Source: an uncultured Flavobacteriales bacterium (GTDB lineage: Bacteria > Bacteroidota > Bacteroidia > Flavobacteriales_D > Sanyastnellaceae). Taken from it: 51,048 nucleotides of DNA. The notes under the pieces are model-generated. The model saw only the letters and a list, made by a program, of their open reading frames with translations, did not search any database and was not told where the DNA came from. Both the position numbers and the translations under genes were made by a program. Positions within the stretch are counted from its first letter, which is position 1. Each line of letters opens with the position of its first letter. The stretch lies in the NCBI GenBank assembly GCA_913041135.1, contig CAJWIF010000004.1, positions 1 through 51,048 on the forward strand, written 5' to 3'. This document shows positions 4,961-51,048 of the stretch, piece by piece.

Positions 4961-5052
4961 TTTTTATGAGGTTCCAATGGGTTTCTTGCAGTAATGTAAG
5001 GCAAATGCTTGGATCCAAAGTGAGAATAGATCCGTGACATGTGTTTTTAAAA

Positions 5053-6051
5053 CTAGAATGACGGGCAGTTTATTGTTCTAAACTTAGAACGCTTGCCACG
5101 GCAGTCAAACTGTATCGTCATGCTGATTTCGTGCGCTCCCCCGGTTGAAGGGGTCAATTCAGAAATCGTTAAATCATAGCTGTAGCCAAATTGGACAACA
5201 TCAGTTTTGATCCCGAGTGTCACAATAAAGGCATCCCGATAATCCGTGAACATGATGCCCCGGTACCAAATGCCACCCACGAGTGGACCTTTGTTCACGT
5301 AGAGACCAACATTGAGCTGTTCAAATTCTCCTTGTTTCCGATAGAAAATATTCGGAGAAATCGTAGACTCTACACCGGTAACAGAACGTTGCAGTGGAAG
5401 CACGGCACCTGCATGGAAGGTATACTTCATGGGCAAACGACTTGTTCCAACGACCAAAGATTCATTGGGTTCATTGAGGTGATGCACGGCACCCCCGAAA
5501 TAAAATCGGTCCGTAAAACCAATGATACCAGAGCTGAAATCTACCGTACGAACCATTCCTCCACGTGGAATGTCCTGAGTGTTGTAGATGAATCCACGTC
5601 GCGGGTCAATCATGTCCCCAAAAGTCAAGCGGTCCCAATCCAATGCTTTCTGCATGTAGGTGACCTGCATGGCTGCTTTTATGGAGAGTTTCCGGGTAAC
5701 TGCTTGCTGGTAACTATAAATACCGCTGGCGGTAGTCGTGCTGAGTGTGCCACGTCCCGCTTGGTCGTTCATCACAATGAAGCCCAAACCACCGGAAAGT
5801 GTTTCGACATGCTGGTCATAAGCTGCCGCTGTCGTGACATACGAGCCACTCATGGCGGGCCACTGGTTGCGGTACGACATCGTGAGACGTGGGCAGCGAG
5901 CAGATCCCGCAAAAGCAGGATTGAGATAGAGCGGGTTAGCGAAATACTGTGTAAACTCAGGGTCTTGAGCTTGCGCAGTATTCGATTGCAGTGTCAAAAA
6001 TGACGCCATTAGCAGGATGCCAATGGTGGGGATAGTCAGTAGTTGCTTCAT
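5053..6051 (-). CDS. PorP/SprF family T9SS outer membrane protein
   Basis: The 332-aa protein begins with a signal peptide ending near AQAQ (residues 26-29), then the family hallmark DPEFTQYFANPLYLNPAFAG. The rest consists of alternating beta strands of a membrane barrel, with SYRNQWPAM and FGYSYDLTISEL typical of PorP/SprF. PorP belongs to the T9SS core; SprF-like paralogues partner type B CTD cargo at the cell surface. Core porP normally sits with porK-L-M-N, so this copy beside gldJ is more likely a paralogue. It is transcribed toward gldJ across a 92-nt gap with no clear terminator. Family is firm; partner is unknown. Confidence 0.88.
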   Translation of the reverse strand: MKQLLTIPTIGILLMASFLTLQSNTAQAQDPEFTQYFANPLYLNPAFAGSARCPRLTMSYRNQWPAMSGSYVTTAAAYDQHVETLSGGLGFIVMNDQAGRGTLSTTTASGIYSYQQAVTRKLSIKAAMQVTYMQKALDWDRLTFGDMIDPRRGFIYNTQDIPRGGMVRTVDFSSGIIGFTDRFYFGGAVHHLNEPNESLVVGTSRLPMKYTFHAGAVLPLQRSVTGVESTISPNIFYRKQGEFEQLNVGLYVNKGPLVGGIWYRGIMFTDYRDAFIVTLGIKTDVVQFGYSYDLTISELTPSTGGAHEISMTIQFDCRGKRSKFRTINCPSF

Positions 6052-6173
6052 GTAGAGAGACCCAAAGGATTCACAAGAATAAGAAAAAAACCAATGCCTA
6101 CCCGAAAATCATCGCAAGGAGATTGCATTTCGAGCATACGTTTTCATCTTTAACGCACGTTTGGAGCTTTACG

Positions 6174-6199
6174 TTGCATCTTTTTTTTAACCAACTTTG
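6174..6199 (+). promoter_or_regulatory. Candidate porU promoter (TTG / CAACTTTG)
   Basis: TTG at 6174-6176 is followed 15 nt later by CAACTTTG (6192-6199), one mismatch from TAnnTTTG, after a T8 run. It ends 9 nt before the ATG at 6209. The spacing is slightly short, so support is modest. Confidence 0.3.
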
Positions 6200-6208
6200 C
6201 GGCACGGA

Positions 6209-9200
6209 ATGAAATCATTTAAAATGGCAGTTGTTTTTGGAGTGCCCATTCGTGAAATAGACGTGTTTTTAAAGTCTGTTTTAGCTGGAGTTAGCTGTTT
6301 ATTGGTTGTTTTGAGTGTGGGCGTGGGCACGGTGAGTGCGCAGTCTCTAAATCAGAGCAATGTGGCTGAAGGCGTTTGGGAGGTTGATTGGTTGCCGATG
6401 GGCTCAGACTATGCTCCTGTGGGCAAGTGGGCTCCTCGTGATGGGTTTTGGCTTGATGAGATTCCTTGGGTTGTGTGGGAGGCGGAATTGCCTGGATTTG
6501 ATGAAGGGATGGAGCGGCTAGTCGATTCAGAAACGTGGGTTGAAGTTCCGACGAACGAACTGACGGCTCGTCAACAATCGGTTTTGAAAAAGGAGATCGC
6601 AGCACCGCACTGGCGTTTTTTGAATGAAACGATAAAAATCACTCAGTTTGAATCTCCGCTTTTCAGGTTTGTCGAGGCGCGTGATGTATTTGAACGGTTG
6701 GTGAAGGTTGATTGGGCCATGGGCTCCTCGATCGAATCCACGCCGCGAGCGCAGCGGGAGAGACAGTGGCCGTTGGAGGGTCCTCTAGAGAAAGAAAATA
6801 TGTATCGCTTGTCCATTGCTGAAGACGGTGTCTTTCGAATTGATCGCAATTGGATGGTCGCAGCGGGCTTTGATCCCGATACCTTAGATCCAAGAGCGAT
6901 TCGATTGTGGGGCAACGGCGGGGAGATGCTTCCGATGAACAACGACGTTGATCGTCCATTGGGAGTGGAGGCAGCGGCTATTTGGTTTGAGGGAGAAGAC
7001 GACGGAATGTGGAATGTAGACGACGCCTTGTTTTTTTATGGGAAGGGTCCAGACACTTGGACACAAGGCACGAATGCACGCACATGGAAACATAATCGGC
7101 ACACGTACAGTGACTCCGCTTGGTATTTTTTAGAAGTGAACAGTGAATCCGTGGATTCCTTAGCGCGTATCCAAGATCGTGGAGAAATCTCCGCGACACC
7201 GGATACCGTTGTTGAGACCTTTTGGATGCGCTCTTTTCATGAATTGGAATTGGAAAGCCCCAATCGTTCAGGACGCGAGTGGTTTGGAGAGTCTTTTCAG
7301 AACACCAGTTCTCGGGTGGTGAATTTTAATGTCCCATTTGCCACGACGACACCCGGTCGTTTGGACTTTAGGGTGGCGGCCCAATCCATGGGCTCTTCGA
7401 GCACATTTAATTTCAATGTGAATGGGGTCGAAGCGGAAGCATCGCCTTCTTACACAAGCAACGGATCAGTGAGCAATGTCGCTAATCTAGCAAGTGGAAA
7501 CTTTGATTTAGGACAGCCCACTGGCAGCGGTGCGACCGCGCAGCATCAGGTGCAGGTTTCTTTTGACCCAACTGTGCCAACCGCTATTGGATGGCTTGAT
7601 TACCTCCGAATCTCTCAGGAATGCACATTGCGCATGGCGCAATCGCAGTTGGAGTTTGACGCAGACGCAATGGAAGAGGGTGCTGTGGCGGCATATACTG
7701 TCTTGAATGCAGAGAGTCTCTTGGGTATTTGGGATGTTTCAAAGCACAATCAGCCTAAACGAGTGACTTGGGACGATACCGAGTCTGGCGAAGCGGTCTT
7801 CCGTTCACTGGCGGATGAGCCAAGGCGCTTTGCGTTGTTCACGGGGTACAATTTTAAGACGCCTGATTTCCAGGGGTCTGTGAAACCGTTGGATCTGCAT
7901 GGAGTGGAGCAAGCGGATTTGGTTGTCATTACACGTGCTGATTATTTACCCGCAGCTGAGCGTTTAGCGCAACTGCATGCAGAAGAGGGGTTGAGTGTTT
8001 TGGTTACCACCCAACGCGCTGTATTCGATGCGTTTTCAAGCGGAAACACAGATCCAACAGCGGTGAAAATGTTGATGATGATGTTGCGTGACCGGGCGCT
8101 TCAAAATGATGTAGCCCCGCCGAAGTATTTGCAGATCATGGGAGATGGGACGTTTGCGAATCGGGTAAACTTGATGCAATCTCCGTTTGTAATCACGTAT
8201 CAGAGCGAAAACTCCTTGAGCCCAACGGGAAGCTATGTGAGTGATGATTTCTTTGGTTTTTTGAAGGATGAATACGGTGAGGGCATTGGCGATAAGATGG
8301 CCATTGGTGTTGGTCGTATTCCTTGCTCTAGCATTGCTGAAGCGGATGCAATGGTGGACAAAGTCGAAGCGTATATGAAGCGCTCCCAACCAGTCTTGCC
8401 AGGACTGGATTGCGAAGATGTGAACGCCAGCTCTTCAGGCTCTTGGAGGAATGTCATTTGTTTTGTTGCGGATGACATGGATGGCAATGGTGGGCCGACC
8501 GAAGATGAGCACATGGTGAATTCGGATGAGCATGGAAATACCCTTGCGGAGAATCACCCGGAATACGATGTCAATAAAATATACTTAGACGCATATCCGC
8601 AGTGGAGTACCCCGGGTGGGGAACGGTATCCGGATGCCCAGGAATTCATTGATCGCCAGGTCAGCGAGGGGGCGTTGATCATGAATTACATCGGTCATGG
8701 TGGTGAGCGGGGGTGGTCTCATGAGCGTGTTCTCAATACGACGACCATCCAAGAGTGGGACAACGTGACCAACATGCCGCTCTTTATGACGGCGACCTGT
8801 GAATTGGCTCGGTTTGATGACCCAGGTGTTGAATCTGCTGGTGAAATGATGGTCATGAATCCTTCGGGGGGTGCCATCGCCATGCTCACGACCACACGCG
8901 TTGTGTTCAGTGGTTCGAATCAGCAGTTAAATCGGGCGTTTTATGACATTGCACTGCAAGACACGGAATCTGAGCCGTTGAGGTTGGGAGATATAGCGCG
9001 TGTCACGAAAAACGACCCCCAAGTATCGAACACCTCGAATAAACGGAACTTCACCCTGTTAGGAGATGTTGCGCTTCGTCTGAACTACCCGCGTAAAAAT
9101 GTGGTGATAGAATCTCTTCCAGACACGATAAAAGCTTTGGATGTTGTTTTGGTAGAAGGAACGGTTCGCGATGAGATCGGAGCTTTAATGCCTGAATTTG

Positions 9201-10156
9201 ACGGATTGGTTTACGTTAAGGTTTTTGACAAACCGTCTCAAATCACCTCGCTTAACAATGACAATGGCCCCAATCCGCATGTTTTTGAAGTATTCCGAAA
9301 CGTACTACACCAAGGGGTAGCTAGCGTTGAGGCCGGCGTCTTTGCTTTCGAATTTGTCGTACCAAGGGACATCGATTTTTCTTTTGCTGAAGGCCGAATT
9401 AGTTGCTATGCTGTTTCTGATAGTACGGATGCACACGGAGCTTCTCAAGCTTTTGTTATTGGGGGCGTCAATGATGAATTCACCCTTGATGAAACTCCCC
9501 CGACTGTTTCGCTTTTCCTGAACGATACGCTGTTTCGCACGGGGGGCATCACCCATAGCCATCCCATGCTCTTGGCACGGGTTTTTGACGAGGGAGGAAT
9601 CAATGCGGCAGGTGTCGGAATTGGTCATGATATCAAGGCCACGCTTGATGGGGAGTCAAGCGAAAGTGTCGTTTTGAACGGATTCTACACGGCCGATTTG
9701 AATACGTACATCCGCGGAACCGTGCGCTATCCGTTTGAAGATTTAGAATCAGGGCCCCATCAATTGGAGTTGGTGGTGTGGGATGTTCAAAATAACAAAG
9801 GCAAAGCGGAGATTGAATTCGAGGTATACGACGACTTTGAATCGGCGCTTGGCCAGGTTGTGGCTTATCCGAACCCCTCAACAGACGTCTTTCAGTTTTC
9901 TCTTGAACACAATCAAGCCTGCCAGTCGGGTGTTGCGACCTTGGAGGTCTTCTCGAACTCGGGACAATTGGTTTATCGATCGGAACAGCCTTGGGAGCAA
10001 GAAGGATTTCGCACCGAGTCGTTGCGTTGGAATTCTGCCGGAGGATCTGATGGCAAAGCCGTGCCTGCAGGGGTCTATGTTTTCCGTTTGACCCTCAATA
10101 CAGAAACCGGGGGGATCGTGCAATATGCCGACCAAATCATCGTTCTGCGACCATAA
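6209..10156 (+). CDS. porU: Type IX secretion system sortase PorU
   Basis: Cell-surface gingipain-like (peptidase C25 family) sortase that removes the C-terminal domain of T9SS cargo and attaches the cargo to the surface. The product is 1315 aa from the ATG at 6209; a TTG four codons earlier and an ATG at 6224 are alternatives. A hydrophobic signal peptide ends at VSAQ (about residues 43-46). The catalytic His is in NYIGHGG (about 830) and the Cys in TATCELARFDD (about 864). A type A sorting domain begins near YPNPSTDVF and ends GVYVFRLTL...IIVLRP; PorU is known to carry its own sorting domain. Length matches PorU. The stop overlaps the first possible porV ATG (TAATG), so the two are probably cotranscribed. 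Confidence 0.93.
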   Translation: MKSFKMAVVFGVPIREIDVFLKSVLAGVSCLLVVLSVGVGTVSAQSLNQSNVAEGVWEVDWLPMGSDYAPVGKWAPRDGFWLDEIPWVVWEAELPGFDEGMERLVDSETWVEVPTNELTARQQSVLKKEIAAPHWRFLNETIKITQFESPLFRFVEARDVFERLVKVDWAMGSSIESTPRAQRERQWPLEGPLEKENMYRLSIAEDGVFRIDRNWMVAAGFDPDTLDPRAIRLWGNGGEMLPMNNDVDRPLGVEAAAIWFEGEDDGMWNVDDALFFYGKGPDTWTQGTNARTWKHNRHTYSDSAWYFLEVNSESVDSLARIQDRGEISATPDTVVETFWMRSFHELELESPNRSGREWFGESFQNTSSRVVNFNVPFATTTPGRLDFRVAAQSMGSSSTFNFNVNGVEAEASPSYTSNGSVSNVANLASGNFDLGQPTGSGATAQHQVQVSFDPTVPTAIGWLDYLRISQECTLRMAQSQLEFDADAMEEGAVAAYTVLNAESLLGIWDVSKHNQPKRVTWDDTESGEAVFRSLADEPRRFALFTGYNFKTPDFQGSVKPLDLHGVEQADLVVITRADYLPAAERLAQLHAEEGLSVLVTTQRAVFDAFSSGNTDPTAVKMLMMMLRDRALQNDVAPPKYLQIMGDGTFANRVNLMQSPFVITYQSENSLSPTGSYVSDDFFGFLKDEYGEGIGDKMAIGVGRIPCSSIAEADAMVDKVEAYMKRSQPVLPGLDCEDVNASSSGSWRNVICFVADDMDGNGGPTEDEHMVNSDEHGNTLAENHPEYDVNKIYLDAYPQWSTPGGERYPDAQEFIDRQVSEGALIMNYIGHGGERGWSHERVLNTTTIQEWDNVTNMPLFMTATCELARFDDPGVESAGEMMVMNPSGGAIAMLTTTRVVFSGSNQQLNRAFYDIALQDTESEPLRLGDIARVTKNDPQVSNTSNKRNFTLLGDVALRLNYPRKNVVIESLPDTIKALDVVLVEGTVRDEIGALMPEFDGLVYVKVFDKPSQITSLNNDNGPNPHVFEVFRNVLHQGVASVEAGVFAFEFVVPRDIDFSFAEGRISCYAVSDSTDAHGASQAFVIGGVNDEFTLDETPPTVSLFLNDTLFRTGGITHSHPMLLARVFDEGGINAAGVGIGHDIKATLDGESSESVVLNGFYTADLNTYIRGTVRYPFEDLESGPHQLELVVWDVQNNKGKAEIEFEVYDDFESALGQVVAYPNPSTDVFQFSLEHNQACQSGVATLEVFSNSGQLVYRSEQPWEQEGFRTESLRWNSAGGSDGKAVPAGVYVFRLTLNTETGGIVQYADQIIVLRP

Positions 10157-10194
10157 TGGATTTTTTAATTTTGCGCTTTACCTTTCACGTCGCC

Positions 10195-11463
10195 ATGCGA
10201 TTGAACAACACTTTGTCTTTTCCACGCCGCGCAGCTGTAGTCGCTGTTCTGCTTTCCTTAAGTTTTTCGGGCCTTCAAGCTCAATTGACCCCCGGAGAGG
10301 TGTCTCAACAAGTGCAGCTCAATACCATCACAACGGCTGTCCCGTTCCTAATGATTGGGCCGGATTCGCGTTCTGGGGCCTTAGGAGATGCGGGTGTAGC
10401 GCTATCGCCGGACGCAAATAGCCTGCATTGGAATCCAGCAAAGATGGCTTTCAGTGAGAATGAGGTGGAATTCAGCTTGAGTTATGCGCCTTGGTTACGT
10501 GCTCTTGTGGACGACATGAATTTGGCCTACCTCTCGGGTGTCAAGCGCTTGAACAAGCGACAAGCGTGGGGTGCTGCTCTTCGCTACTTTAGCTTGGGTA
10601 ACATCACCTTTACAGATGAGACAGGAACGACCATTCGGGACTTTCAGCCTGCTGAGTTTAGCTTGGATGTAGGATACAGTCAGAAACTGAGTGATAAATT
10701 CAGCGGAGGAATTGCGGGAAGATTCATCAATTCGAATTTGACAGGAGGAACGAATGTTTTGGGTGCGAACTCCAAACCAGGACGTTCGGTTGCCGTTGAT
10801 ATCAGTGCATTTTATTCCAATCCTCGAACCAAATTTGCAGGCCGTGATGCGGCGTTCAATTGGGGTGTGAATATTTCGAACATAGGCGCCAAGATGAGCT
10901 ATTCCGAATCAGCGGATCGGGACTTCATTCCCACAAACTTGAAGCTTGGCTCAGCGTTGACAATGAAGTTGGATGAATACAACAGCTTGACCTTTACAGC
11001 GGATGCCAACAAACTGTTGGTTCCTACCAGTCCGATTTATGATCAAGAAAGCGGGGTGAACATTGTGAGTGGATATGATCCGAACGTTGGGGTTGCAACT
11101 GCCATGATGCAAAGCTTTTACGATGCGCCTGGCATTGTAAATTTCAATCAAGACGGTACGTATACGGTAGAGGAAGGAAGTATTTTGAGGGAAGAGATCA
11201 GAGAATGGAACATCGGCGGAGGAATTGAGTATCTCTACAACGATGTTTTTGCATTTCGAACAGGCTTCTTCAATGAGCACTATTCTAAAGGTGCACGTCA
11301 ATTCATCACATTGGGTGCTGGGATCAAGTACACGGTGTTTACAGTTGACTTGAGTTACCTCATTTCAACACGTCAGCAAAATCCGCTTGCCAACACGCTG
11401 CGATTCACGCTGCGTTTGCAGTTCTCTGACCTGGTTAATTCCAGCGGAGATTCGGAGGATTAA
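10195..11463 (+). CDS. porV: Type IX secretion system outer membrane shuttle protein PorV (LptO)
   Basis: FadL-like outer membrane barrel that carries T9SS cargo to the PorU attachment complex. From the ATG at 10195 it is 422 aa with a signal peptide ending GLQAQ (about residue 30). The conserved start of mature PorV is visible: TAVPFLMIGPDSRSGALGDAGVA and LHWNPAKMAFS. The C-terminus is a strand-rich barrel ending TLRFTLRLQF. An earlier ATG at 10156 overlaps the porU stop and would add 13 residues; I prefer 10195 because the signal peptide then has normal length. gldJ, porU and porV near each other is a conserved arrangement in Flavobacteriia. Confidence 0.93.
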   Translation: MRLNNTLSFPRRAAVVAVLLSLSFSGLQAQLTPGEVSQQVQLNTITTAVPFLMIGPDSRSGALGDAGVALSPDANSLHWNPAKMAFSENEVEFSLSYAPWLRALVDDMNLAYLSGVKRLNKRQAWGAALRYFSLGNITFTDETGTTIRDFQPAEFSLDVGYSQKLSDKFSGGIAGRFINSNLTGGTNVLGANSKPGRSVAVDISAFYSNPRTKFAGRDAAFNWGVNISNIGAKMSYSESADRDFIPTNLKLGSALTMKLDEYNSLTFTADANKLLVPTSPIYDQESGVNIVSGYDPNVGVATAMMQSFYDAPGIVNFNQDGTYTVEEGSILREEIREWNIGGGIEYLYNDVFAFRTGFFNEHYSKGARQFITLGAGIKYTVFTVDLSYLISTRQQNPLANTLRFTLRLQFSDLVNSSGDSED

Positions 11464-14721: not shown

Positions 14722-15981
14722 ATGGCTGAGATTATACGCATGCCGAAATTGAGCGACACGATGACCGAGGGGGTCGTCGCTTCATGGCTGAAAAAAGTAG
14801 GAGATGAGGTCGAAAACGGGGAGCTTCTCGCCGAGATTGAGACCGATAAAGCAACCATGGAATTCGAGTCCTTCTTCGATGGTGTGTTATTGCACATCGG
14901 AGTAGAACAGGGTGGAGCGGCTCCAGTGGACAGCTTGCTGTGCATTTTGGGTGAGAAAGGAGAAGACATCTCTGCGTTGCTCGAGTCTGCCCTTGAGGCA
15001 GCTCCAGTCGCTGAAGAAAAGTCGGCACCGGCACCGGCACCGGCACCGGCACCGGCGCCAAATCCTGCACCCGCACCAGTGGCTTCTGTTGCCGCTAGCG
15101 TAACCCCTGTGGCAGCTCCAGCTCCAGTTTCTGCCAATACGGGTCGTTTAAAAGCGTCGCCATTGGCTCGGAAGTTGGCGGAAGAACGCGGCATTAATGT
15201 CTCGCAAATCCCCGGTTCAGGGGATTCTGGTCGGATTGTAAAGCGCGATGTAGAAGCCTTTAATGGATCGAATTCAGCCGCGCCAGGGGTTGAACGATTC
15301 ACAGAGGTAGGAGTCAGTCAAATGCGGAAAACCATTGCGCGCCGTTTGGCGGAGAGCAAGTTTTCGGCGCCTCACTTTTATCTGACGGTGAGTATCGAAA
15401 TGGATACAGCCATGGATGCTCGTAAGTCAATCAATGACGCCGGAGAGGTCAAAATTAGTTTCAATGACATGGTCGTGAAAGCGGCTGCACTTGCTTTGAA
15501 AAAACACCCCGCTGTGAATAGCAGCTGGTTGGAAGATCGCATTCGATACAACGAGCATGTTCATATCGGTGTGGCTGTTGCTGTAGAGGACGGATTGCTC
15601 GTACCCGTTGTGCGCCATGCAGACGGAAAACGCTTGTCTCAAATTGGGGCAGAAGTCCGTGATTTTGCCGGCAAGGCCAAGGATAAAAAACTACAGCCAA
15701 GTGACTGGGAAGGGAACACCTTTACCATTTCGAATTTGGGCATGTTTGGTATTGATGAGTTTACGGCAATCATCAACGCTCCTGATGCGTGCATTTTAGC
15801 CATTGGTGGAATCAACGCTGTGCCCGTTGTACGAGATGGGGCGGTTGTTCCAGGCCATGTCATGAAAGTCACGCTCAGTTGCGACCACCGCGTTGTGGAT
15901 GGAGCTTCAGGGGCTTCTTTCTTACAAGACTTCAAAGCATTTTTAGAGAATCCTGTACGGATGTTAGCCAACGGTTATTAA
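14722..15981 (+). CDS. pdhC: Pyruvate dehydrogenase E2 component (dihydrolipoamide acetyltransferase)
   Basis: The E2 core transfers acetyl groups from lipoamide to CoA. The 419-aa protein has one N-terminal lipoyl domain with the lipoylated Lys43 in ETDKATME. An Ala-Pro-rich linker (about 100-140) follows, then a peripheral subunit-binding domain (ASPLARKLAEERGINVSQIPG, about 147-180). The catalytic domain has the active-site motif DHRVVDG with His389. The linker is encoded partly by a hexanucleotide repeat. A strong terminator follows 26 nt after the stop, closing the pdhA-pdhC transcript. Confidence 0.95.
   Translation: MAEIIRMPKLSDTMTEGVVASWLKKVGDEVENGELLAEIETDKATMEFESFFDGVLLHIGVEQGGAAPVDSLLCILGEKGEDISALLESALEAAPVAEEKSAPAPAPAPAPAPNPAPAPVASVAASVTPVAAPAPVSANTGRLKASPLARKLAEERGINVSQIPGSGDSGRIVKRDVEAFNGSNSAAPGVERFTEVGVSQMRKTIARRLAESKFSAPHFYLTVSIEMDTAMDARKSINDAGEVKISFNDMVVKAAALALKKHPAVNSSWLEDRIRYNEHVHIGVAVAVEDGLLVPVVRHADGKRLSQIGAEVRDFAGKAKDKKLQPSDWEGNTFTISNLGMFGIDEFTAIINAPDACILAIGGINAVPVVRDGAVVPGHVMKVTLSCDHRVVDGASGASFLQDFKAFLENPVRMLANGY
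15024..15059 (+). repeat. Hexanucleotide tandem repeat (GGCACC)5 plus GGCGCC in pdhC
   Basis: Five perfect GGCACC copies (15024-15053) and one variant GGCGCC copy encode an Ala-Pro dipeptide run in the E2 linker. Any copy-number change stays in frame and only changes linker length. Confidence 0.9.
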
Positions 15982-32785: not shown

Positions 32786-35080
32786 CTACTGACGCTTGCG
32801 TAGAATCGTGAGCGGTCCATAAAAGGTTTCGCCATCCGACCGCCTCAATACGTAATAGTACGTCCCATCAGAAACGGGGTCTCCACTCATCCGGCCATCC
32901 CAGCCGCCTTTGTAGTCGTCATCCTGAAAGACCAGATTGCCCCATCGATTGAAGATCTCAACGCTCGAGTTGGGAAAGCCTTCAATTCCCGGAATTCTGA
33001 AAAAGTCATTGTAGGTGTCGTTGTTCGGAGAGAAGACATTGGGGATTTCCGTGTCGCATGCCACGAGGCTGATCATGAACGAGGCGTCGCTGCCGCATTG
33101 GTCAATGGCCCACACCTCCATAACACCCTGTTGGGTCGTTGATTGGTAATTGCCAAACGGGCCGATGAAAGTGACGAGGCTGTCCAAGAATTGATCGACA
33201 GCCACCCAAACGGAATCTTGAGGACTCTGGTTGGAGTCGAAATTCGAATATTGCCAGGTGAAGAAGGTGTAGTTGCCAGTTCCTCCTTCCAGTCCGAGAC
33301 TGGCCTGAAGTCCGAGGCAGACATCGTCTTCGTCACCGGTAATGGGTTCGTAAATGGGGATTTCAACTTCCCATTCCACGACGGCCTCCGTTTCGCATGG
33401 GTCCGTCACGGTCAAAATAATCGCCGTGCTGGTGTTCAGGTTGACCAATTCCGTTTGTACGTCACCGCCAGAAGACCAGGCGTAATCAAAGGGCCCAACT
33501 CCGGTATTGATCCCCGCCTGCAAATACACGCTGTCACCCGCGCAGAGGGGGTCATTCAGTTGGTTGATGTAGACGTTCAGTTCCGGTGGTTGAGTGAATG
33601 CGACAGTCGCCTCAACCTCGTTTCCGCAGACATCGGTCACCACCACATCAGCTGTCCCCGGTGTGTTTGTGGTCACTACATTCACAGAAAGGGTGTCATT
33701 CGTCCCTGTACTCCATTCATATGAATACGGTCCATAACCACTGATTGGATTCACTTCAAGTACAGCCTCTCCTTGACAAATGCCGACAGGAGATTCAAAG
33801 TCAAGCGTCGTTTGTTCGAAATCTTGTATGACCAGGGTGGCCGATCGTAAGACGGAATCGCCGCACAGATTGGTATACAGGTACTCGATGGTCACGGTTT
33901 CGGGAGCTTCTGCTTCTGCGTCAGCGTTGACATTCAACGGCAAATCATAAATGTATTGCCCCACCAACATGATCACTTCGGGATCAATGGTTTCGTAATC
34001 GACACCGTTCGTAGCTGTACCTGAAATGGTCACATTCAACGTGTCTTCAGTAGTTGCGCTTGGACGAATGATTTTGAATATGGCATTGTTGCAGGATTCC
34101 ACCACCGTCGTGTCTCCCAGGAAGATCTGATTTCCAGAAACGGATGCGCTGGCCACCAGGTCAAATGCATTGGAGGAAAAGCTGCCTTCTTCTAAAACCA
34201 CGATGGACTCCAAAGCGGTGTCGCTGCCGTCAGCAATGGCGAGTTTGATGTGATACGTTGCGCCGCATTGGACCGCGTATTCTGCCGTAAACGGCACAGT
34301 ATATCCGTTGATGCAAACATCAGTCCCCCCTTGATTGTCTTCGTAGTAAATAGCGTTTGTGCCCGAATTGACTGAAGAGATGGTGATGGGTAAAATGGGG
34401 TCGGTGTCGGGGACGCCGGCAATGTTGACCGCTCCATCGGGGAATCCAGCTGGGCTATCGAATGGACCCGTAATCCCTGGTCCGCTCAAGAAAAAAGCGA
34501 AGACATCGTTGTATTGGGTATTGATCCACGTCTCGTACTCGTCCGATCCAAAGACGTAATTGAAACTAATTGAATCCCCGCCGGAGACAAAATCAAACTC
34601 TAAGACACATCCATCGTTTACTGAATTGACGGTGAAGTTTTGGCCTATCATCGGTGGAACAGAATTGGCGATGTCCAGCAAGTCAGGGTCAGCGAAGGCT
34701 GCTCCGAGACAGTCGTCGCAGGTGTTGATGGAGCATTCGAGATTTTCTGAAGCATCCGAGCTCAGAACCAATCCTGAAGCGATGGAAAAGGAATCTTCCC
34801 CTTGGGTTAAATAGCCTAATTGTGAGAGTCCACCCGTATACGTCACGTTGAACGCTTCAACACCTTCACCAAGAAGCACGGTGTTGACATACTCTTCCGG
34901 GGTGAGGGTTTGATCCACCTGAATCTGCCCCGTTGCGGCACTCCAGCAAAAAACAGCCAATCCGAGAAAAACGAATTCAGCCCATGATCTGCCGTGGTTA
35001 CGATTTTCAACTTCGTCCAACAGGGAGTGATGCTCTGAAGCAATATCGCTAATACGGGGTGTGCGAATGGACTGTTTCAT
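32786..35080 (-). CDS. T9SS type B sorting domain protein with choice-of-anchor L domain
   Basis: Secreted or surface protein of about 764 aa (ATG at 35080). The frame extends to 35143, and the true start is uncertain because the hydrophobic signal (WAEFVFLGLAVFCWSAATGQ) lies about 34 residues in. The mature N-terminal domain matches the choice-of-anchor L family: SGLVLSSDASENLE, VLEFDFVSGGDSISFNYVFGSDEY, FAFFLSGPGI and AIADGSDTALESIVVLEEGSF. Several Ig/PKD-like beta domains with paired Cys follow. The C-terminus is the gliding-motility-associated (type B) sorting domain: IPNVFSPNNDTYND, VEIFNRWGNLVF, GGWDGRMSGDPVSDGTYYYVLRR. It depends on T9SS; SprF-like proteins such as the one at 5.1-6.1 kb often assist such cargo. 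Confidence 0.88.
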   Translation of the reverse strand: MKQSIRTPRISDIASEHHSLLDEVENRNHGRSWAEFVFLGLAVFCWSAATGQIQVDQTLTPEEYVNTVLLGEGVEAFNVTYTGGLSQLGYLTQGEDSFSIASGLVLSSDASENLECSINTCDDCLGAAFADPDLLDIANSVPPMIGQNFTVNSVNDGCVLEFDFVSGGDSISFNYVFGSDEYETWINTQYNDVFAFFLSGPGITGPFDSPAGFPDGAVNIAGVPDTDPILPITISSVNSGTNAIYYEDNQGGTDVCINGYTVPFTAEYAVQCGATYHIKLAIADGSDTALESIVVLEEGSFSSNAFDLVASASVSGNQIFLGDTTVVESCNNAIFKIIRPSATTEDTLNVTISGTATNGVDYETIDPEVIMLVGQYIYDLPLNVNADAEAEAPETVTIEYLYTNLCGDSVLRSATLVIQDFEQTTLDFESPVGICQGEAVLEVNPISGYGPYSYEWSTGTNDTLSVNVVTTNTPGTADVVVTDVCGNEVEATVAFTQPPELNVYINQLNDPLCAGDSVYLQAGINTGVGPFDYAWSSGGDVQTELVNLNTSTAIILTVTDPCETEAVVEWEVEIPIYEPITGDEDDVCLGLQASLGLEGGTGNYTFFTWQYSNFDSNQSPQDSVWVAVDQFLDSLVTFIGPFGNYQSTTQQGVMEVWAIDQCGSDASFMISLVACDTEIPNVFSPNNDTYNDFFRIPGIEGFPNSSVEIFNRWGNLVFQDDDYKGGWDGRMSGDPVSDGTYYYVLRRSDGETFYGPLTILRKRQ

Positions 35081-35194
35081 GAATCTGAATGCGACAATTG
35101 TGCTATCAAACATACGTTCTATTGTCATTGCAGTGCGTGTCATTGAATTGGACTACTAACAGTGGACCTTGAATTTCGTCAATACCTTAGCACC

Positions 35195-44182: not shown

Positions 44183-44965
44183 TCAAAAAGGTCCGCGGAT
44201 GATTCCTTTGTCGGAGGCATTGATGAAATCAAGGATAATGCTCTTGTCCTGGGTTGCGGGCAATTCAGTTTCAGCAGCGCGCAGCGCTTGAGATAAGTTG
44301 CCGTTTTGAACATAGAGCATTCGGTAGATGTCCTCGATGTTCAAGATGCGTTCATTGTCATACCCTCTGCGTCGCAGTCCAATGCTATTTACACCAATGT
44401 ATGAGAGTGGTTCGCGGGCGGCTTTGATATAGGGTGGAATGTTCTTACGCACGAGTGATCCTCCCGCAACAAATGCATGCATGCCAATGGTGACAAACTG
44501 TTGCACGCCGACCATTCCTTCGAGAATCGCCCAATCTTCAATGGTCACATGGCCTGCGATATTTCCTGAGTTCGCGATGATTACGTGGTCGCCGACCAAA
44601 ACATCATGAGCGAGGTGGGTGTATGCCATCAACAAGCAATCCGTCCCTACGGCGGTTCGCATGCGGTCTGTGGTGCCACGGTTGATGGTCACGCATTCGC
44701 GAATTACAGTGCGGTCACCAACTTCAGCAGTTGAGGGCTCTCCCGCATATTTGAGGTCCTGTGGCACGGCTCCGATCACAGCACCAGGAAAAATTTTACA
44801 GTCCTTTCCTATGCGTGAGCCATTCATGATGATTGCATTCGGACCGATCCAGGTTCCTGGACCGATTTCAACATCTTCTTCGATGAATGCGAAGGGATTA
44901 ATAATGGCTCCTTCTCCAATAAGCGCCTTGGAGCTCACATAGGCTTGGGGTGAAATCTGACTCAC
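44183..44965 (-). CDS. lpxA: Acyl-ACP--UDP-N-acetylglucosamine O-acyltransferase
   Basis: First enzyme of lipid A synthesis; it transfers a 3-hydroxyacyl chain from ACP to UDP-GlcNAc in the cytoplasm. The 260-aa protein shows left-handed beta-helix hexapeptide repeats (IGEGAIINPFAFIEEDVEIG, IGPNAIIMNGSRIGKDC). The LpxA signatures are TVIRECVTINRGT, the catalytic-His region LMAYTHLAHDVLVGDHV and IGVNSIGLRRRGY. It lies 27 nt after lpxC/fabZ on the same strand. Confidence 0.96.
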   Translation of the reverse strand: MSQISPQAYVSSKALIGEGAIINPFAFIEEDVEIGPGTWIGPNAIIMNGSRIGKDCKIFPGAVIGAVPQDLKYAGEPSTAEVGDRTVIRECVTINRGTTDRMRTAVGTDCLLMAYTHLAHDVLVGDHVIIANSGNIAGHVTIEDWAILEGMVGVQQFVTIGMHAFVAGGSLVRKNIPPYIKAAREPLSYIGVNSIGLRRRGYDNERILNIEDIYRMLYVQNGNLSQALRAAETELPATQDKSIILDFINASDKGIIRGPF

Positions 44966-44992
44966 TTGATCGTTGGTTTCAGTAATTTCCGC

Positions 44993-46390
44993 TCACTTGT
45001 CTTTTACAATCTTCGCAAGCATCTCTGCTTCTGAGGCCAATTGCCCACGGACATATCCTCTTCCTTTCATGTTAACCAAGCCTCGTCGTATCGGAGACAT
45101 CAATTCTAGATGAAAGACCAGCGTATCTCCTGGGAGCACCTTTTGTTTGAATTTGACATTGTCAATTTTCATAAAGTAGGTGGTGTAGTGCTCGGGGTCT
45201 GGGACAGTATTCAGGGCGAAGATGCCACCAACTTGAGCCATGGCCTCCACTTGCAATACGCCAGGCATGACTGGATTTCCAGGGAAATGACCTTGAAAAT
45301 AGGGTTCGTTGAGGGTGACGTTTTTTAAACCAATGATGCTGTCTTCATTGATTTCCAGAATCCGATCAACCAATAGAAAAGGGTAGCGGTGCGGAAGCAT
45401 CGCGCTAATTTGATTGATGTCAAGGACGGATGGGCGATCAGTACTCAGATTGGGTGTCTTCTTTTCTTCTATCATCATCTTCTTGAGGATTTTTGCAAAT
45501 GAGGTGTTGCCAGCATGGCCGGGCCTGGCTGCCAAAATGTGCGCTTGTAAAAAGCACCCCATGAGAGCGAGGTCTCCCATGATGTCCAATAACTTGTGTC
45601 GTGCAGGTTCGTTTTGATAACGGAGGGGAGATGTATTGAGAACTCCAGGAACGTCACCACGGGACTTGAGGTCCTCCTTTCCAAGCAATTGTGCGATGCT
45701 GTGCAGTTCTTCATCTGAATAGATGCGTTCGATGAGCACAACTGCATTGTTCAGGTCACCTCCTTTAATCAAGCCTTCATTCGCAAGATGCTTGACTTCT
45801 CGCAAGAAAACGAATGTCCGGGAGCGAGCGATTTCGTCTTTGAATTCCGAAATCTTGTACATACTTGCATGCTGGGTGCCGAGAATAGGACTTCGGTAAT
45901 CCACCATGACCGTTATCCGGAATTCATCTTGCGGTTCTGGTACAGCGAGCATCTCAACGCCCTTTTCCTTGTCTTCGTACCAGACATTTGAATTCAACTT
46001 GAAATACTTCCGATTGGCTTCCTGATCTTGGTAACCTGCGGCTTCTAAGGCCTCAACGAACTCGATTGAACTGCCATCCATGATCGGGATTTCAGGACCG
46101 GTCAATTCGATCATAGCATTATCGACTTCGCAACCGTATAGAGCCGCTAGAATGTGCTCTGTCGTGTTGACCTGGGCGCCATTCTGCTCAAGTGTCGTTC
46201 CTCTTTGGGTGCTGACGACACGGTCTACGTTGGCGTCAATAATAGGACTATCAGGGAGGTCTGACCGCTGAAACTTGTATCCATGATTCGCTTCAGCGGG
46301 ATGCAGAGTCATGGTTGTTTGTTGACCGGTATGCAATCCAATCCCAGAGAATGAGATGGATTTACGAATGGTTCTCTGCTTTTTTGTCAT
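44993..46390 (-). CDS. lpxC-fabZ: Bifunctional LpxC deacetylase / FabZ dehydratase
   Basis: A natural fusion, 465 aa. The N-terminal part (about 1-300) is the zinc-dependent UDP-3-O-acyl-GlcNAc deacetylase LpxC, with SFSGIGLHTGQ, TTEHILAALYG, and the metal-binding HKLLDIMGDLAL. The C-terminal part (about 320-465) is the 3-hydroxyacyl-ACP dehydratase FabZ, with MLPHRYPFLLVDRILEI and YFQGHFPGNPVMPGVLQVEAMAQ holding the catalytic His and Glu. The fusion is a known feature of Bacteroidota and ties lipid A deacylation to supply of unsaturated acyl chains. Its ATG overlaps the lpxD stop by 4 nt. Confidence 0.97.
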   Translation of the reverse strand: MTKKQRTIRKSISFSGIGLHTGQQTTMTLHPAEANHGYKFQRSDLPDSPIIDANVDRVVSTQRGTTLEQNGAQVNTTEHILAALYGCEVDNAMIELTGPEIPIMDGSSIEFVEALEAAGYQDQEANRKYFKLNSNVWYEDKEKGVEMLAVPEPQDEFRITVMVDYRSPILGTQHASMYKISEFKDEIARSRTFVFLREVKHLANEGLIKGGDLNNAVVLIERIYSDEELHSIAQLLGKEDLKSRGDVPGVLNTSPLRYQNEPARHKLLDIMGDLALMGCFLQAHILAARPGHAGNTSFAKILKKMMIEEKKTPNLSTDRPSVLDINQISAMLPHRYPFLLVDRILEINEDSIIGLKNVTLNEPYFQGHFPGNPVMPGVLQVEAMAQVGGIFALNTVPDPEHYTTYFMKIDNVKFKQKVLPGDTLVFHLELMSPIRRGLVNMKGRGYVRGQLASEAEMLAKIVKDK

Positions 46391-47439
46391 GAAGAGGTGC
46401 GCGTGTTCTGCTGGATTTTTTCAAGTTCTTCCAAGCGATCCATGAGGCGGTGACGTGATAAATTGCGCAAGGCAATTTGACGTTTTTGATAATCCTTGAT
46501 AGGCGTTGCTGGCGTCCCTTGCCAAACGGAGTCTGGCTCTTTGATACTTGTCGTAACTCCGGATTGCGCTGCGATTTTAACGCCGTCTGCTATTTTGAGA
46601 TGTCCTGCGAATCCAACTTGCCCACCAATCATGCATCGGCTTCCTATGGTGGTCGATCCAGCAATTCCTGTTTGCGCGGCAATGACCGTGTGAGCTCCGA
46701 TGGTGCAGTTGTGCGCAACCTGAATCTGGTTGTCCAACTTCACCCCTTCCTCGATAATTGTTGAGCCCAAAGTGGCACGGTCAATGGTCGTGGCAGCACC
46801 GACTTCACAGTTGTCATGGAGGATGACATTGCCTGTTTGAGGAATCTTTTTGTATCCGTCACCGGCCTGAGGAGCAAACCCAAAGCCATCGGATCCAATG
46901 ATCGCACCTGCTTGAATGGTACACCCGCTTCCAATGATGCAATTGTCCAATACCTGCACTCCACTGTGCAGTTTTGAGTTGGTTCCGATGCGCACATTGC
47001 GACCGACTGTAGCATGCGCATGGATTTCACACTCCTCACCAATGGTGGCGCCGTCTTCAATGACAGCGAGGGCTCCAATGTATACGTTCTGGTGAATTTG
47101 AGCCGATTCACTAATGACAGCAGCCGGATGGACGGTGCGCGGAAGTGCCATAGCTGCCGATGCGAACTCCAAGAGTTGTGCAAATGCCGCATAGGAGTCA
47201 GTAACTCGAATTAAGGTCAAGGCTGCTGGCAACGGTTGCGTAGCAGTAAAAGTTGTGGGAACAATAGCCACTGATGCGCCAGTTGTGTACAAGTACCTTT
47301 CATAATCCGGATTGGATAAAAAGGTAAGTGACCCAGAAGACGCCAACTCAATTTTCGACAATTGATTGACAATGACTTGGGAGTCTCCTTCAACGAGACC
47401 TTTCAACATGTCGGCTAGATCGCCTGCTGTATGTTGCAT
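46387..47439 (-). CDS. lpxD: UDP-3-O-(3-hydroxyacyl)glucosamine N-acyltransferase
   Basis: Third step of lipid A synthesis: attaches a second hydroxyacyl chain to the 2-amino group. The 350-aa protein has the uridine-binding N-terminal domain (LADMLKGLVEGDS, LTFLSNPDYERYLYTT) and a long hexapeptide-repeat domain. SDGFGFAPQAGDGYKKIPQTGNVILHDNCEVGA is the LpxD signature, and KLDNQIQVAHNCTIG contains the catalytic His. A C-terminal helical extension (YQKRQIALRNL) follows. It is 23 nt downstream of aroB. Confidence 0.96.
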   Translation of the reverse strand: MQHTAGDLADMLKGLVEGDSQVIVNQLSKIELASSGSLTFLSNPDYERYLYTTGASVAIVPTTFTATQPLPAALTLIRVTDSYAAFAQLLEFASAAMALPRTVHPAAVISESAQIHQNVYIGALAVIEDGATIGEECEIHAHATVGRNVRIGTNSKLHSGVQVLDNCIIGSGCTIQAGAIIGSDGFGFAPQAGDGYKKIPQTGNVILHDNCEVGAATTIDRATLGSTIIEEGVKLDNQIQVAHNCTIGAHTVIAAQTGIAGSTTIGSRCMIGGQVGFAGHLKIADGVKIAAQSGVTTSIKEPDSVWQGTPATPIKDYQKRQIALRNLSRHRLMDRLEELEKIQQNTRTSS

Positions 47440-47462: not shown

Positions 47463-48542
47463 TCAATTGGTCTCCACGGAAAGGAAGACTTGTTTCCAAA
47501 TGCTTGTGAATTTATTCAACGTTACGGGCTGGTTCCAAATGGCCTCTCCAATCTGCGTCAATGCAACATCAAGAACGGCTCCATCGAGGTTTTTTTTGTC
47601 CTTCAGCATGGCGGGCCACAAATCTGTAGGGTCCAGAGCACTCAGCCAATCCAATTGATGGTGCGCGGGGATTGTGTCGAGCCACATCCGAATGCTTCGG
47701 CTGGCCGATTCAAATTCCGTGGAGTCTGTTTGTAGCAGGGAATTGCTCCATGCCAGCGACCACAACATTCCCCACCCGACGGCTACACCATGACTGAGTT
47801 GCAAATCGTCTTGCTGTGCTTTCCATTCAAGAGCGTGGGCAACGGTGTGTCCGAAATTCAGGGATTTCCGAAGCGATTCGTCCAAGAAGTCTTGAGCAAC
47901 GATGTGTTTCTTTATTTCAGCAGCACGCGGGACCCAAGGCTCAATGGCTCCTGGAAGGTGAATGTCAACGTTCTGAATTTCATTCCACAATGTCCGATCG
48001 GCAATCAAGCTGTGCTTGACGAGCTCCATCCAGCCGTTTGTCCGCTCAAGGGCATCTAAAGAGGAGATGAAGTTGACATCGATGTAGGTCAAGTCGGGCA
48101 GTTGAAACGTTCCAATTTGATTTTTATAATCGGAATAGTTGAGACCATTCTTTCCCCCAATGGCGGCATCGATCATACCGACAAGGGTGGTCGGTACCAA
48201 AACAAAGGGAATACCTCTTTTAAACGTCGAGGCCACAAACCCCCCAAGATCACTGATAGTTCCGCCCCCGACAATCAGCAAAATATGTCCGCGATCTGTA
48301 TTTTCCTGATCCAACCAAGACCAAATGCGTTCAGCCGATTTGATGGATTTGGAATCCTCTCCAGCCGGAATGAAACATTTCGGACTCATATTCCAGACGT
48401 GCGTCAGCGGTCCAAAAACGGGCAACTCTCGGAATCGATCGTCCGCCAGAATTCGAAATCCATCCGATTGAATCCACTGGATCCAAGGCAATTCCAAGTG
48501 CTGGTTTTGGTCGGGTTGATTGAACTGGATGTTTTGATGCAC
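47463..48542 (-). CDS. aroB: 3-dehydroquinate synthase
   Basis: NAD- and metal-dependent enzyme that makes 3-dehydroquinate, the second step of the shikimate pathway. The 359-aa protein has IVGGGTISDLGGFVASTFKRG, VPTTLVGMIDAAIGGKNGLN, ELVKHSLI, the metal-binding region with NFGHTVAHALEW, LSHGVAVGWGM and LKDKKN. Length is normal. It leads the minus-strand run into the lpx genes. The closeness to lpxD (23 nt) suggests one transcript. Confidence 0.95.
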   Translation of the reverse strand: MHQNIQFNQPDQNQHLELPWIQWIQSDGFRILADDRFRELPVFGPLTHVWNMSPKCFIPAGEDSKSIKSAERIWSWLDQENTDRGHILLIVGGGTISDLGGFVASTFKRGIPFVLVPTTLVGMIDAAIGGKNGLNYSDYKNQIGTFQLPDLTYIDVNFISSLDALERTNGWMELVKHSLIADRTLWNEIQNVDIHLPGAIEPWVPRAAEIKKHIVAQDFLDESLRKSLNFGHTVAHALEWKAQQDDLQLSHGVAVGWGMLWSLAWSNSLLQTDSTEFESASRSIRMWLDTIPAHHQLDWLSALDPTDLWPAMLKDKKNLDGAVLDVALTQIGEAIWNQPVTLNKFTSIWKQVFLSVETN

Positions 48543-48984: not shown

Positions 48985-51048
48985 ATGCGTAAACTGCTAT
49001 GCCTCATCATAGCTGCGTCTTCCATGCTTTGGAATGCGCAAGCTCAGGAGCCAACTTCTTCTCCTTCACCTTCCGTACCGGATGGATATTGGCTTGAAGT
49101 TGTCGCCTACGCGGCCCACGATGGAATGGTTGGAACGATTGATTTGACTGGGTATACAACCTATCGCATTTACCTCAACATGGTGAATGAGTCTGATTTT
49201 TTATCGGCGATTTCTGGTGAGGCAGACAATCCGATGATGATCAACTCGACGTCCGAAATGGCCTGGTTCAATGATTTGGATTTGGGTGAGGATATTGGGG
49301 CGGAAAGCAATCCGGGATTCTTTGGTTTCTTTCCTGAATTGGCCTTTGACAGTTGGTTAACGATTGGTGGAGAGAGCGCTGCCGATGGAATTGATGTTTC
49401 GACAGCAGAGGGTGAAATTAGTTTGTTCGATCAATTCAATTCAGGGGACAACGTCCTCATCAATGATGCCACAGGTTCAGCGTTGTTTACGCTTTTTCCT
49501 TGTGACCCCTATGACCTTTCAACGTGTGATTGGAACCATCCTTCTTTTGCGGGTGAGGATTTGCGTGTTTTGGTGGGACAGATCACGACTGAAGGCGAGT
49601 TGACTGGGCAAATGCAAATTCAAGTTTTCAGCAATGGAACGTCGGAGGAAGAATGGCGCGGAGTCATTCCGTTCACGCCTTTTACTCCAGAAGAAATTGT
49701 GGATGGTTGCATGGATGAATTGGCGTGCAATTACGATCCCGCAGCAAACAATGATGATGGTTCGTGCGACTTCTGCTCGTGTGCGACAGCAGGTATGGTG
49801 ACGATGGATTATACCATGACGGTTGAGGAGCATGCAGTAGATATTGTTCCCGGTATGACGACGTACCGTTTTTACATGAACATGGCGAATGAGGACGACT
49901 TCTTAAGCTCGGTTTACGGCAACGATACAGACCCTTTGTATTTGTTGACAACGACCGGCTTCTTCAACAGCCAGTTTGGTGCTACGACGGCAGGAGGAGT
50001 GAATCCTGCGTTTTTGGCTTTCTTCCCTGATTTGGCAGCTGATAGTTGGGTTACCATCGGAATTGAATCGCAGCCTGAAGGAAGTGAGAGTTCAATCAGC
50101 ACGGTAGAAAGCGTAGACCAGCCATGGGTTGGAGCCTTCGCTGCTGCCAGCGCAATCGATGGACAGGACATTGTGATTGACGACCAAACGGGCGGAGCTT
50201 GGTATGTGTTGAATGGCACTCCCAATGGCCTCCCAGACCCAATGAACAACCGAGTGCTGATTATGCAGATGTCAACTGCAGGAGACATCAGTGGCACGCT
50301 GAATACCCAGGTTTTTGTAAATGGTGATGGCACGGATGATGTTCGTGGTGCGTTTAGCTTCGAGGGAACAGGAGTGTATTCTCCTGATGCGGCCGGTGTT
50401 TCCAATGCATGTGGATGCATGGATCCGGAAGCCATTAATTTTGATCCAGAGGCTGATTATGATGACGGAAGTTGCATCGATGTGATTGAAGGATGTATGG
50501 ACGAGGTGGCGTGCAATTATGATGCTTTGGCCAATACGGACGACGGATCGTGCAGCTATGTTGCTGTGGGGTATGATTGCGATGGCAACTGCCTCTTAGA
50601 CACGGACGGCGATGGAGTATGTGACGAATTTGAAGTAGCCGGTTGCCAGGACGCAACGGCCTGTAACTACAACGCTGAAGCGACAGACTCCGACGACTCC
50701 TGCACCTATGCTTCAGAGGGCCTCAACTGTGAAGGTGCCTGCATTGCCGATACCGACGGCGATGGAGTATGCGACGAATTTGAACTAGCCGGTTGCCAGG
50801 ATGCAACGGCTTGCAACTACAACGCTGACGCGACAGACTCCGACGACTCTTGTACGTATGCTGATGCGGGCTACGACTGCGATGGCAACTGCCTTGCGGA
50901 TGCAGACGCCGACGGTGTATGCGACGAATTTGAAGTAGCCGGTTGCCAGGATGCAACGGCTTGCAACTACAACGCTGACGCGACTGACGCAGCCTCATGC
51001 ACCTATGCTGATGCGGGCTACGACTGCGATGGCAACTGCCTCGTTGAT
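48985..51048 (+). CDS. Large secreted repeat protein, N-terminal part (3' end outside window)
   Basis: The frame is open from the ATG at 48985 to the right edge (688 codons). A signal peptide (MRKLLCLIIAASSMLWNAQA) opens it. Two related beta-rich modules follow (about 33-235 and 273-470): compare TTYRIYLNMVNESDFLSAI with TTYRFYMNMANEDDFLSSV, and FFPELAFDSWLTIG with FFPDLAADSWVTIG. They are separated and followed by Cys-rich units of the form GCxDxxACNYxxxAxxDDGSC, at residues 241, 477, 503, 553, 603 and 653. Between the later units lie DTDGDGVCDEFE segments like thrombospondin type 3 calcium sites. Such repeats are common in Bacteroidota surface proteins that end in a T9SS sorting domain; that end is not visible here. 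Function unknown. Confidence 0.88.
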   Translation, partial: MRKLLCLIIAASSMLWNAQAQEPTSSPSPSVPDGYWLEVVAYAAHDGMVGTIDLTGYTTYRIYLNMVNESDFLSAISGEADNPMMINSTSEMAWFNDLDLGEDIGAESNPGFFGFFPELAFDSWLTIGGESAADGIDVSTAEGEISLFDQFNSGDNVLINDATGSALFTLFPCDPYDLSTCDWNHPSFAGEDLRVLVGQITTEGELTGQMQIQVFSNGTSEEEWRGVIPFTPFTPEEIVDGCMDELACNYDPAANNDDGSCDFCSCATAGMVTMDYTMTVEEHAVDIVPGMTTYRFYMNMANEDDFLSSVYGNDTDPLYLLTTTGFFNSQFGATTAGGVNPAFLAFFPDLAADSWVTIGIESQPEGSESSISTVESVDQPWVGAFAAASAIDGQDIVIDDQTGGAWYVLNGTPNGLPDPMNNRVLIMQMSTAGDISGTLNTQVFVNGDGTDDVRGAFSFEGTGVYSPDAAGVSNACGCMDPEAINFDPEADYDDGSCIDVIEGCMDEVACNYDALANTDDGSCSYVAVGYDCDGNCLLDTDGDGVCDEFEVAGCQDATACNYNAEATDSDDSCTYASEGLNCEGACIADTDGDGVCDEFELAGCQDATACNYNADATDSDDSCTYADAGYDCDGNCLADADADGVCDEFEVAGCQDATACNYNADATDAASCTYADAGYDCDGNCLVD
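50491..51048 (+). repeat. Tandem 150-bp (50-residue) repeats in the secreted protein
   Basis: Units begin at 50491, 50641, 50791 and 50941, exactly 150 nt apart. The units at 50791 and 50941 share their first 44 bases exactly and another long identical block further on, so the duplication is recent or homogenised. The array runs off the window. Confidence 0.9.

Follow-up and report, generated by a model that had tools for sequence, protein, structure and literature searches.

The truncated open reading frame (ORF) at the right-hand end of the window, by which we mean the entire 51,048-nucleotide stretch of DNA under analysis, is best read as the front of one giant gene whose rear most likely lies on another contig of the same genome. 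We consider it likely that this gene encodes a giant modular T9SS cargo attached to the cell surface, with a stalk of Cys/acidic and HYR repeats and with the N-terminal modules outermost. At the level of sequence, this reading draws on gene order, complete orthologues, a sorting-domain match in those orthologues, and T9SS genes.

The organism is an uncultured marine bacterium known here solely as metagenome assemblies, and the window comprises all 51048 bases of contig C4 in a 2.30-Mb assembly of 174 contigs (G000). The ORF occupies 48985..51048 on the + strand and contains 688 codons and zero stops, remaining open through the window's final base. Because the window is a complete contig, the missing stop marks the end of the assembly within repeats. 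A first-pass annotation had described this ORF with an internal duplication followed by a repeat array, and an ORF scan, BLASTP, TRF, and alignment of the units recovered all of these features.

The aroB-lpx locus and its orthologues

Matches to the protein family were found in all 22 genomes of the same genus, and the N-terminus of the window gene itself was present in 21 of them; in the remaining genome, G009, the N-terminal part was matched at the paralogue level only. In all 21 copies, the frame was unclosed where the contig stops, counting one (G011) for which the contig end was judged from the length of the locus. Since the assemblies break within this gene, full proteins are missing from them, and the genus yielded no complete copy.

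We describe the locus by its neighbors, whose names are our reading of the translations, carried across genomes by tblastn. The divergent neighbor aroB (47463..48542, - strand) marks the locus together with lpxD, lpxC/fabZ, and lpxA (44183-47439). Flanks were fetched for 12 same-genus genomes, and the aroB-lpxD-lpxC/fabZ-lpxA block lay upstream of the gene in 11; in the twelfth, the contig begins 278 bases before the gene. Complete syntenic orthologues occurred in two other genera, one of 2773 residues (L145) and one of 3034 residues (L137), the latter from a 4.1-Mb genome in a single contig. Both have aroB upstream and genes for a thioesterase, rfaF, tatD, and ansA downstream. The entire lpx block is present beside L145, and fewer than two block members accompany L137, which owes its placement to aroB and the genes downstream. 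Three other long module-bearing proteins with CTD-like ends (L142, L143, and L146) were not counted because the aroB-lpx block was not seen beside them, so that such proteins are not tied to the locus.

With the C-terminus of L145 as the query, we found on contig C13 of the window's genome a 1389-residue frame that enters from the contig end and lies beside rfaF, tatD, and ansA. A matching 3' half was present in seven of nine same-genus genomes searched, each of the seven open at a contig end, with no clear 3' half in G013 and G021. The 3' halves of the window's genome and its sister genome G005 are 94% identical. The putative adjacency of C4 and C13 is suggested by synteny rather than by a linking read.

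HYR_4C (PF23237) scored 80.5 bits in this 3' half, over its cut-off, and 329.6 bits in L137; the score in L145 was 20.7, below the cut-off of 27, and HYR_4C was not among the Pfam matches to the window part of the gene. LapB_rpt_80 (NF033932) passed its cut-off of 45 in the HYR_4C region with 66.0 and 60.7 bits, and an OmpL47-type domain (NF047446) scored 54.5 bits in the 3' half against a cut-off of 40. None of the domains that define these known protein groups covers the module and array of the window. By eye, residues about 770-900 of L145, which separate its Cys array from its HYR part, resemble a fasciclin-like domain, a stretch for which Pfam returned no row at E 0.01.

Predicted T9SS export and the fate of the protein

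In the two complete orthologues, TIGR04183 scored 28.5 and 27.0 bits (cut-off, 23), and the type A domain occupies residues 2695-2771 of 2773 in L145 and 2954-3032 of 3034 in L137, over both the Pfam and NCBIfam cut-offs. The 3' half in the window's own genome comes close, with TIGR04183 at 21.5 bits against 23 (E = 1.7e-4) over residues 1310-1388 of 1389 and Por_Secre_tail (PF18962) at 20.6 bits against a Pfam cut-off of 27. A C-terminal type A sorting domain, for which the first-pass annotation had proposed a search, is thus found in both complete syntenic orthologues and nearly so in the likely 3' half. The window itself encodes the T9SS sortase PorU (6197..10156, + strand; 1096.7 bits, cut-off 420) and the T9SS outer membrane protein PorV (10156..11463, + strand; 456.9 bits, cut-off 250), along with a PorP/SprF family protein (236 bits, over its cut-off) and a GldJ-like protein barely under its cut-off (455.6 against 458.2 bits). 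SprA passed its cut-off outside the window in the same genome. The sorting domain of the orthologues, the near-cut-off match in the gene's own 3' half, and PorU and PorV in the window together support the predicted assignment of the gene product as a T9SS cargo, in agreement with the export route first suggested for it. Type A domains are described as recognized by PorV (PMC12618676).

The GldJ-like, PorP/SprF family, PorU, and PorV genes lie side by side at 3224-11463. Elsewhere in the window (32786-35143), a Choice-of-anchor L protein carries a type B sorting domain of the T9SS (69.6 bits), and the two T9SS domain types are therefore both present.

The gene resembles typical T9SS type A proteins (TIGR04183, PF18962) in its signal peptide as read by eye, in the type A domain of its orthologues, and in the presence of PorU and PorV; it differs in that the copy in its own genome falls slightly under the cut-offs and the gene is not closed. 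The SprB-type adhesins of gliding flavobacteria are very large, repetitive T9SS cargo at the cell surface. Our protein would be like them in size, repeats, and predicted export to the surface by the T9SS, and differs from SprB, which carries a type B domain.

Taken as a working model, the ORF would be the N-terminal part of one protein of probably 2,000 to 3,000 residues or more. The signal peptide at its N-terminus would direct export by the Sec pathway, and the C-terminal type A domain would direct crossing of the outer membrane by the T9SS. PorU with PorV would then cut off the type A domain and attach the protein at the cell surface. The stalk would be built from the HYR repeats of the C-terminal part and the 50-residue Cys/acidic repeats, with disulphides and probably Ca2+ holding them together, and the beta-rich N-terminal modules would lie furthest out as candidate binding heads. 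Array units may at times be swapped by recombination, which would alter the sequence or length of the stalk. Cleavage, anchoring, Ca2+ binding, and the geometry of the stalk are predicted steps of this model, as are the surface display, reach, and adhesion that the first-pass annotation had envisaged.

The same giant T9SS cargo might instead be released to the medium or matrix, as a Ca2+-dependent matrix or aggregation protein. The type A domain predicts export only, attachment and release look alike in sequence, and acidic, Cys-rich arrays would suit a matrix protein. We nevertheless regard release as unlikely, given that the PorU sortase is encoded on the same contig and that attachment is the commoner fate of type A cargo, and we favor surface attachment.

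The duplicated module and the Cys/acidic array

The encoded layout runs from a signal peptide through module 1, a short Cys motif, module 2, and a second short Cys motif to four 150-bp units. A Sec signal peptide (48985..49044, + strand) is evident in the ORF and in the orthologues by inspection, not by a predictor, with putative cleavage between AQA and QEP. The resulting Gln at +1 fits the Q-rule described for Bacteroidetes (PMC5837995).

The two copies of the module, a domain of about 195 residues, lie on the + strand at 49081..49677 and 49801..50367. The claim of an internal duplication of about 200 residues held up well: residues 33-238 and 268-474 are 35% identical (65 of 185 columns; BLASTP E = 1e-28), and the global score of 210 between the two modules lies far beyond those of 200 shuffles (mean, -36; maximum, 32). 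At least 11 copies occur in the window's genome, 11 being the number scored. An AlphaFold2 model of copy 2 (pLDDT, 95.5; pTM, 0.90) consists mostly of beta strands. The module is an unnamed domain without a significant Pfam or PDB match. Among 77 copies, the best Pfam row (E = 0.0027) was under its cut-off; a sequence search of the PDB gave two rows, with E values of 1.1 and 1.2; and a Foldseek search of the PDB with the model gave nothing at E ≤ 0.001 (best, 0.016). The best viral model in the fold search was a nameless entry (E = 1.3e-3, probability 0.98, TM 0.33), and the best VIA Z of 5.5 (125 residues aligned at 3.8 Å) lies in a range that the tool deems common. Because no fold match was significant, a binding role for the module is a guess. 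Within the window's family, 112 of 114 genomes contained the module, compared with 16 of 185 other genomes in the order (128 of 299 in total, the split being our own) and 3 of 296 genomes drawn evenly from the phylum; it is therefore nearly confined to one bacterial family.

The first short Cys motif, GCMDELACNYDPAANNDDGSC, lies at 49705..49767 (+ strand), and the second, without the acidic half, at 50413..50475 (+ strand). The array that follows on the same strand consists of units 1 (50491..50640), 2 (50641..50790), and 3 (50791..50940), of 50 residues each, and unit 4 (50941..51048), which is cut by the contig end at 108 bp and carries a one-codon deletion relative to unit 3. The description of repeats of exactly 50 residues accordingly applies to units 1-3 and fails for unit 4, which is cut and one codon short in its visible part. 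TRF reported a period of 150 with 2.9 copies and 86% matches. In 48 array segments, namely that of the window and 47 picked from named loci, six Cys columns per unit (positions 2, 8, 21, 30, 34, and 44) show little or no variation, and each unit contains an acidic DxDxDGxCDxxE loop. The named loci number 76 and were taken from a single scan of public genome contigs, in which the best 80 of 188 relatives were kept. Across them, unit starts were most often spaced by 50 residues (300 cases, compared with 138 of 27 and 70 of 51), which makes the period a feature of the family and not of the window gene alone.

The units share the head-to-tail DxDxDGxxDxxE loop of bacterial TSP3 repeats and EF-hand loops and differ from them in their 50-residue length, their six Cys residues, and a separate GCxDxxACNYxxxAxxxDGSC motif that makes up about half of each unit. 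In the window ORF, TSP3_bac (PF18884; 22.9 bits) and EF-hand_1 (PF00036; 18.8 bits) fell under their gathering cut-offs of 25 and 25.4, and NCBIfam gave no match up to E 1; EF-hand_1 passed in one paralogue array with 28.6 bits. The predicted array model (pLDDT, 92.6; pTM, 0.56) returned zero Foldseek matches, a result uninformative either way for so irregular a fold, and the best phmmer match, at E = 0.1, was a putative calcium-binding protein. A literature search on such repeats or tails yielded no description that we recognized, from which absence from print does not follow.

Whether the array is still expanding or converting, as first proposed, received a divided answer. The last two units are 90.7% identical over 108 columns and, as had been noted, share 44 identical bases from their start. 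A run of at least 44 arose in 4.35% of 20000 trials in which 10 mismatches were placed at random in 108 columns; at P = 0.04, the run by itself argues weakly for recent copying, and we rejected it as proof of recent expansion. In a comparison with the sister genome G005, the third positions of conserved residues agreed in 369 of 399 cases in the modules and in 85 of 116 in units 1-3 (Fisher P = 2.5e-7). Within the array, a mosaic tract at 50586..50754, whose boundaries we set by eye after seeing the positions, differs from G005 at 46 of 169 bases (27%), compared with 2 of 95 bases in the array before it and 8 of 126 after it. This is the pattern that conversion or unequal exchange would leave, and it may alternatively reflect mis-assembly near the contig end. 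Layout differs as well, between species represented by one genome each. Modules 1 and 2 are separated by one short Cys motif in G000 and G005 and by four units in G012, and in G015 module 1 is followed by one complete unit and a partial second one, after which the contig ends. The modules seen in the window gene number three in G019 and G021, five in G018, and one in L137 and L145. The mosaic tract and these species-level differences speak for a changing array; against it, the 44-base run is weak and two complete paralogues (1133 and 1756 residues) have the same lengths in G000 and G005 with zero gap columns. Third-position identities in these paralogues (array, 0.935 and 0.863; module, 0.803 and 0.883) reveal no clear excess divergence of their arrays. 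Genome-wide homogenization of the 150-bp units was not seen, the longer matches in G000 being 65-81% identical and short pieces up to 85%.

Much of this pattern (the 44-base identity, the mosaic, and the differences in module number) could be a short-read assembly artifact, which we consider improbable. Each of the 21 copies in the genus is cut by the end of its contig, and in G018 (contig C32, L028, residues about 516-1440) 1385 bases that comprise module and array recur without a mismatch at a shift of 1386 bases, a match that 2x150 reads would hardly resolve. It could stem from a real tandem duplication or from a loop made by the assembler. We did not use it as proof of expansion, given that the reads probably came from 2x150 Illumina sequencing; the likely source study, putatively linked through the bin name, describes free-living-fraction metagenomes sequenced by Illumina 2x150 and assembled with SPAdes (PMC10877868). 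Against an artifact, the 50-residue period is family-wide, and identity is about 94-98% on either side of the mosaic tract. A separate short repeat in the window (15023-15056; CGGCAC, 5.7 copies) lies in the Ala-Pro-rich part of what we read as a dihydrolipoamide acyltransferase and looks ordinary.

C-terminal tails of module-bearing proteins

A 28-residue, dockerin-like tail, CPGDxNGDGxVxxxDLLxFLxxYGxxC, stands at the extreme C-terminus of many proteins. By a rough pattern, 63 distinct C-termini of module-bearing ORFs from the named loci comprised 21 type A-like, 17 dockerin-like, and 25 other ends; on reading, many of the last resemble one of the two kinds, and a few are frame ends or a masked stretch. 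Because A3, with which tails were counted, was built from tails picked by eye, the counts depend on that choice: at least 51, 52, and 54 matches in G000, G010, and G005 of the window's genus and at least 88 and 87 in the related G068 (a single-contig genome) and G069, some proteins carrying two tails. TIGR04183 matches in the same genomes numbered 76, 69, and 79 and at least 150 and 144, respectively, the last two at or close to the limit of 150 scored candidates that applied to the tail counts as well. Among 20 hand-picked tails (12 from G068 and 8 from G000), 18 end 0-1 residues before the stop and one ends 2 before it; in the last, an apparent second copy follows at the stop. Examples are found in G000 on contigs C53, C81, C120, C6, C48, C61, C17, and C91 (L201-L208) and in G068 (L189-L200). 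With up to 41 candidates considered per genome, the tail was present in 47 of 51 genomes of the family and in 13 of the 148 remaining genomes of the order (60 of 199, again split by us), the members outside the family having one or two copies each.

NF041540, the NCBI model of a two-repeat GC-type dockerin, gave weak matches to 9 of 17 tails (best E = 0.011) and had 12 matches in G000 (2 over the cut-off) and 21 in G068 (7 over the cut-off). Among the 17 tails, 7 matched the Pfam model Dockerin_1 (best E = 9.1e-4) and 10 matched EF-hand_6. On this basis, the tail is best called a single-repeat relative of a described anchor domain and not a wholly new one. We tentatively suggest, at odds somewhat below even, a lineage-specific "choice-of-anchor" family that includes the module. 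Modules and arrays of this family would end in either a T9SS type A domain, as they do in the orthologues of the window gene, or the 28-residue tail, and the tail would serve next to the T9SS domain as another signal for sorting to, or attachment at, the surface.

That the module is a cohesin-type receptor for dockerin-like tails on proteins of the same cell, with the giant protein as a scaffold, seems very improbable even with 17 cohesins among the 50 PDB entries listed by VIA-align (Z of 4.4-5.5; our count) and dozens of tail matches per genome, since a Z below 8 may by the tool's own note reflect merely a common arrangement, Cohesin is absent from the Pfam rows of the 77 module copies, and a number of modules sit on the same proteins as the tails.

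Under the preferred reading of a surface-attached T9SS cargo, what appeared as a truncated ORF becomes one giant surface-protein gene that probably holds the same locus in several genera of one family and forms the breakpoint of the assemblies examined across a whole genus. The analysis also brings out an unnamed module, present in at least 11 copies in a single genome, and a shared C-terminal tail that is a candidate sorting signal.
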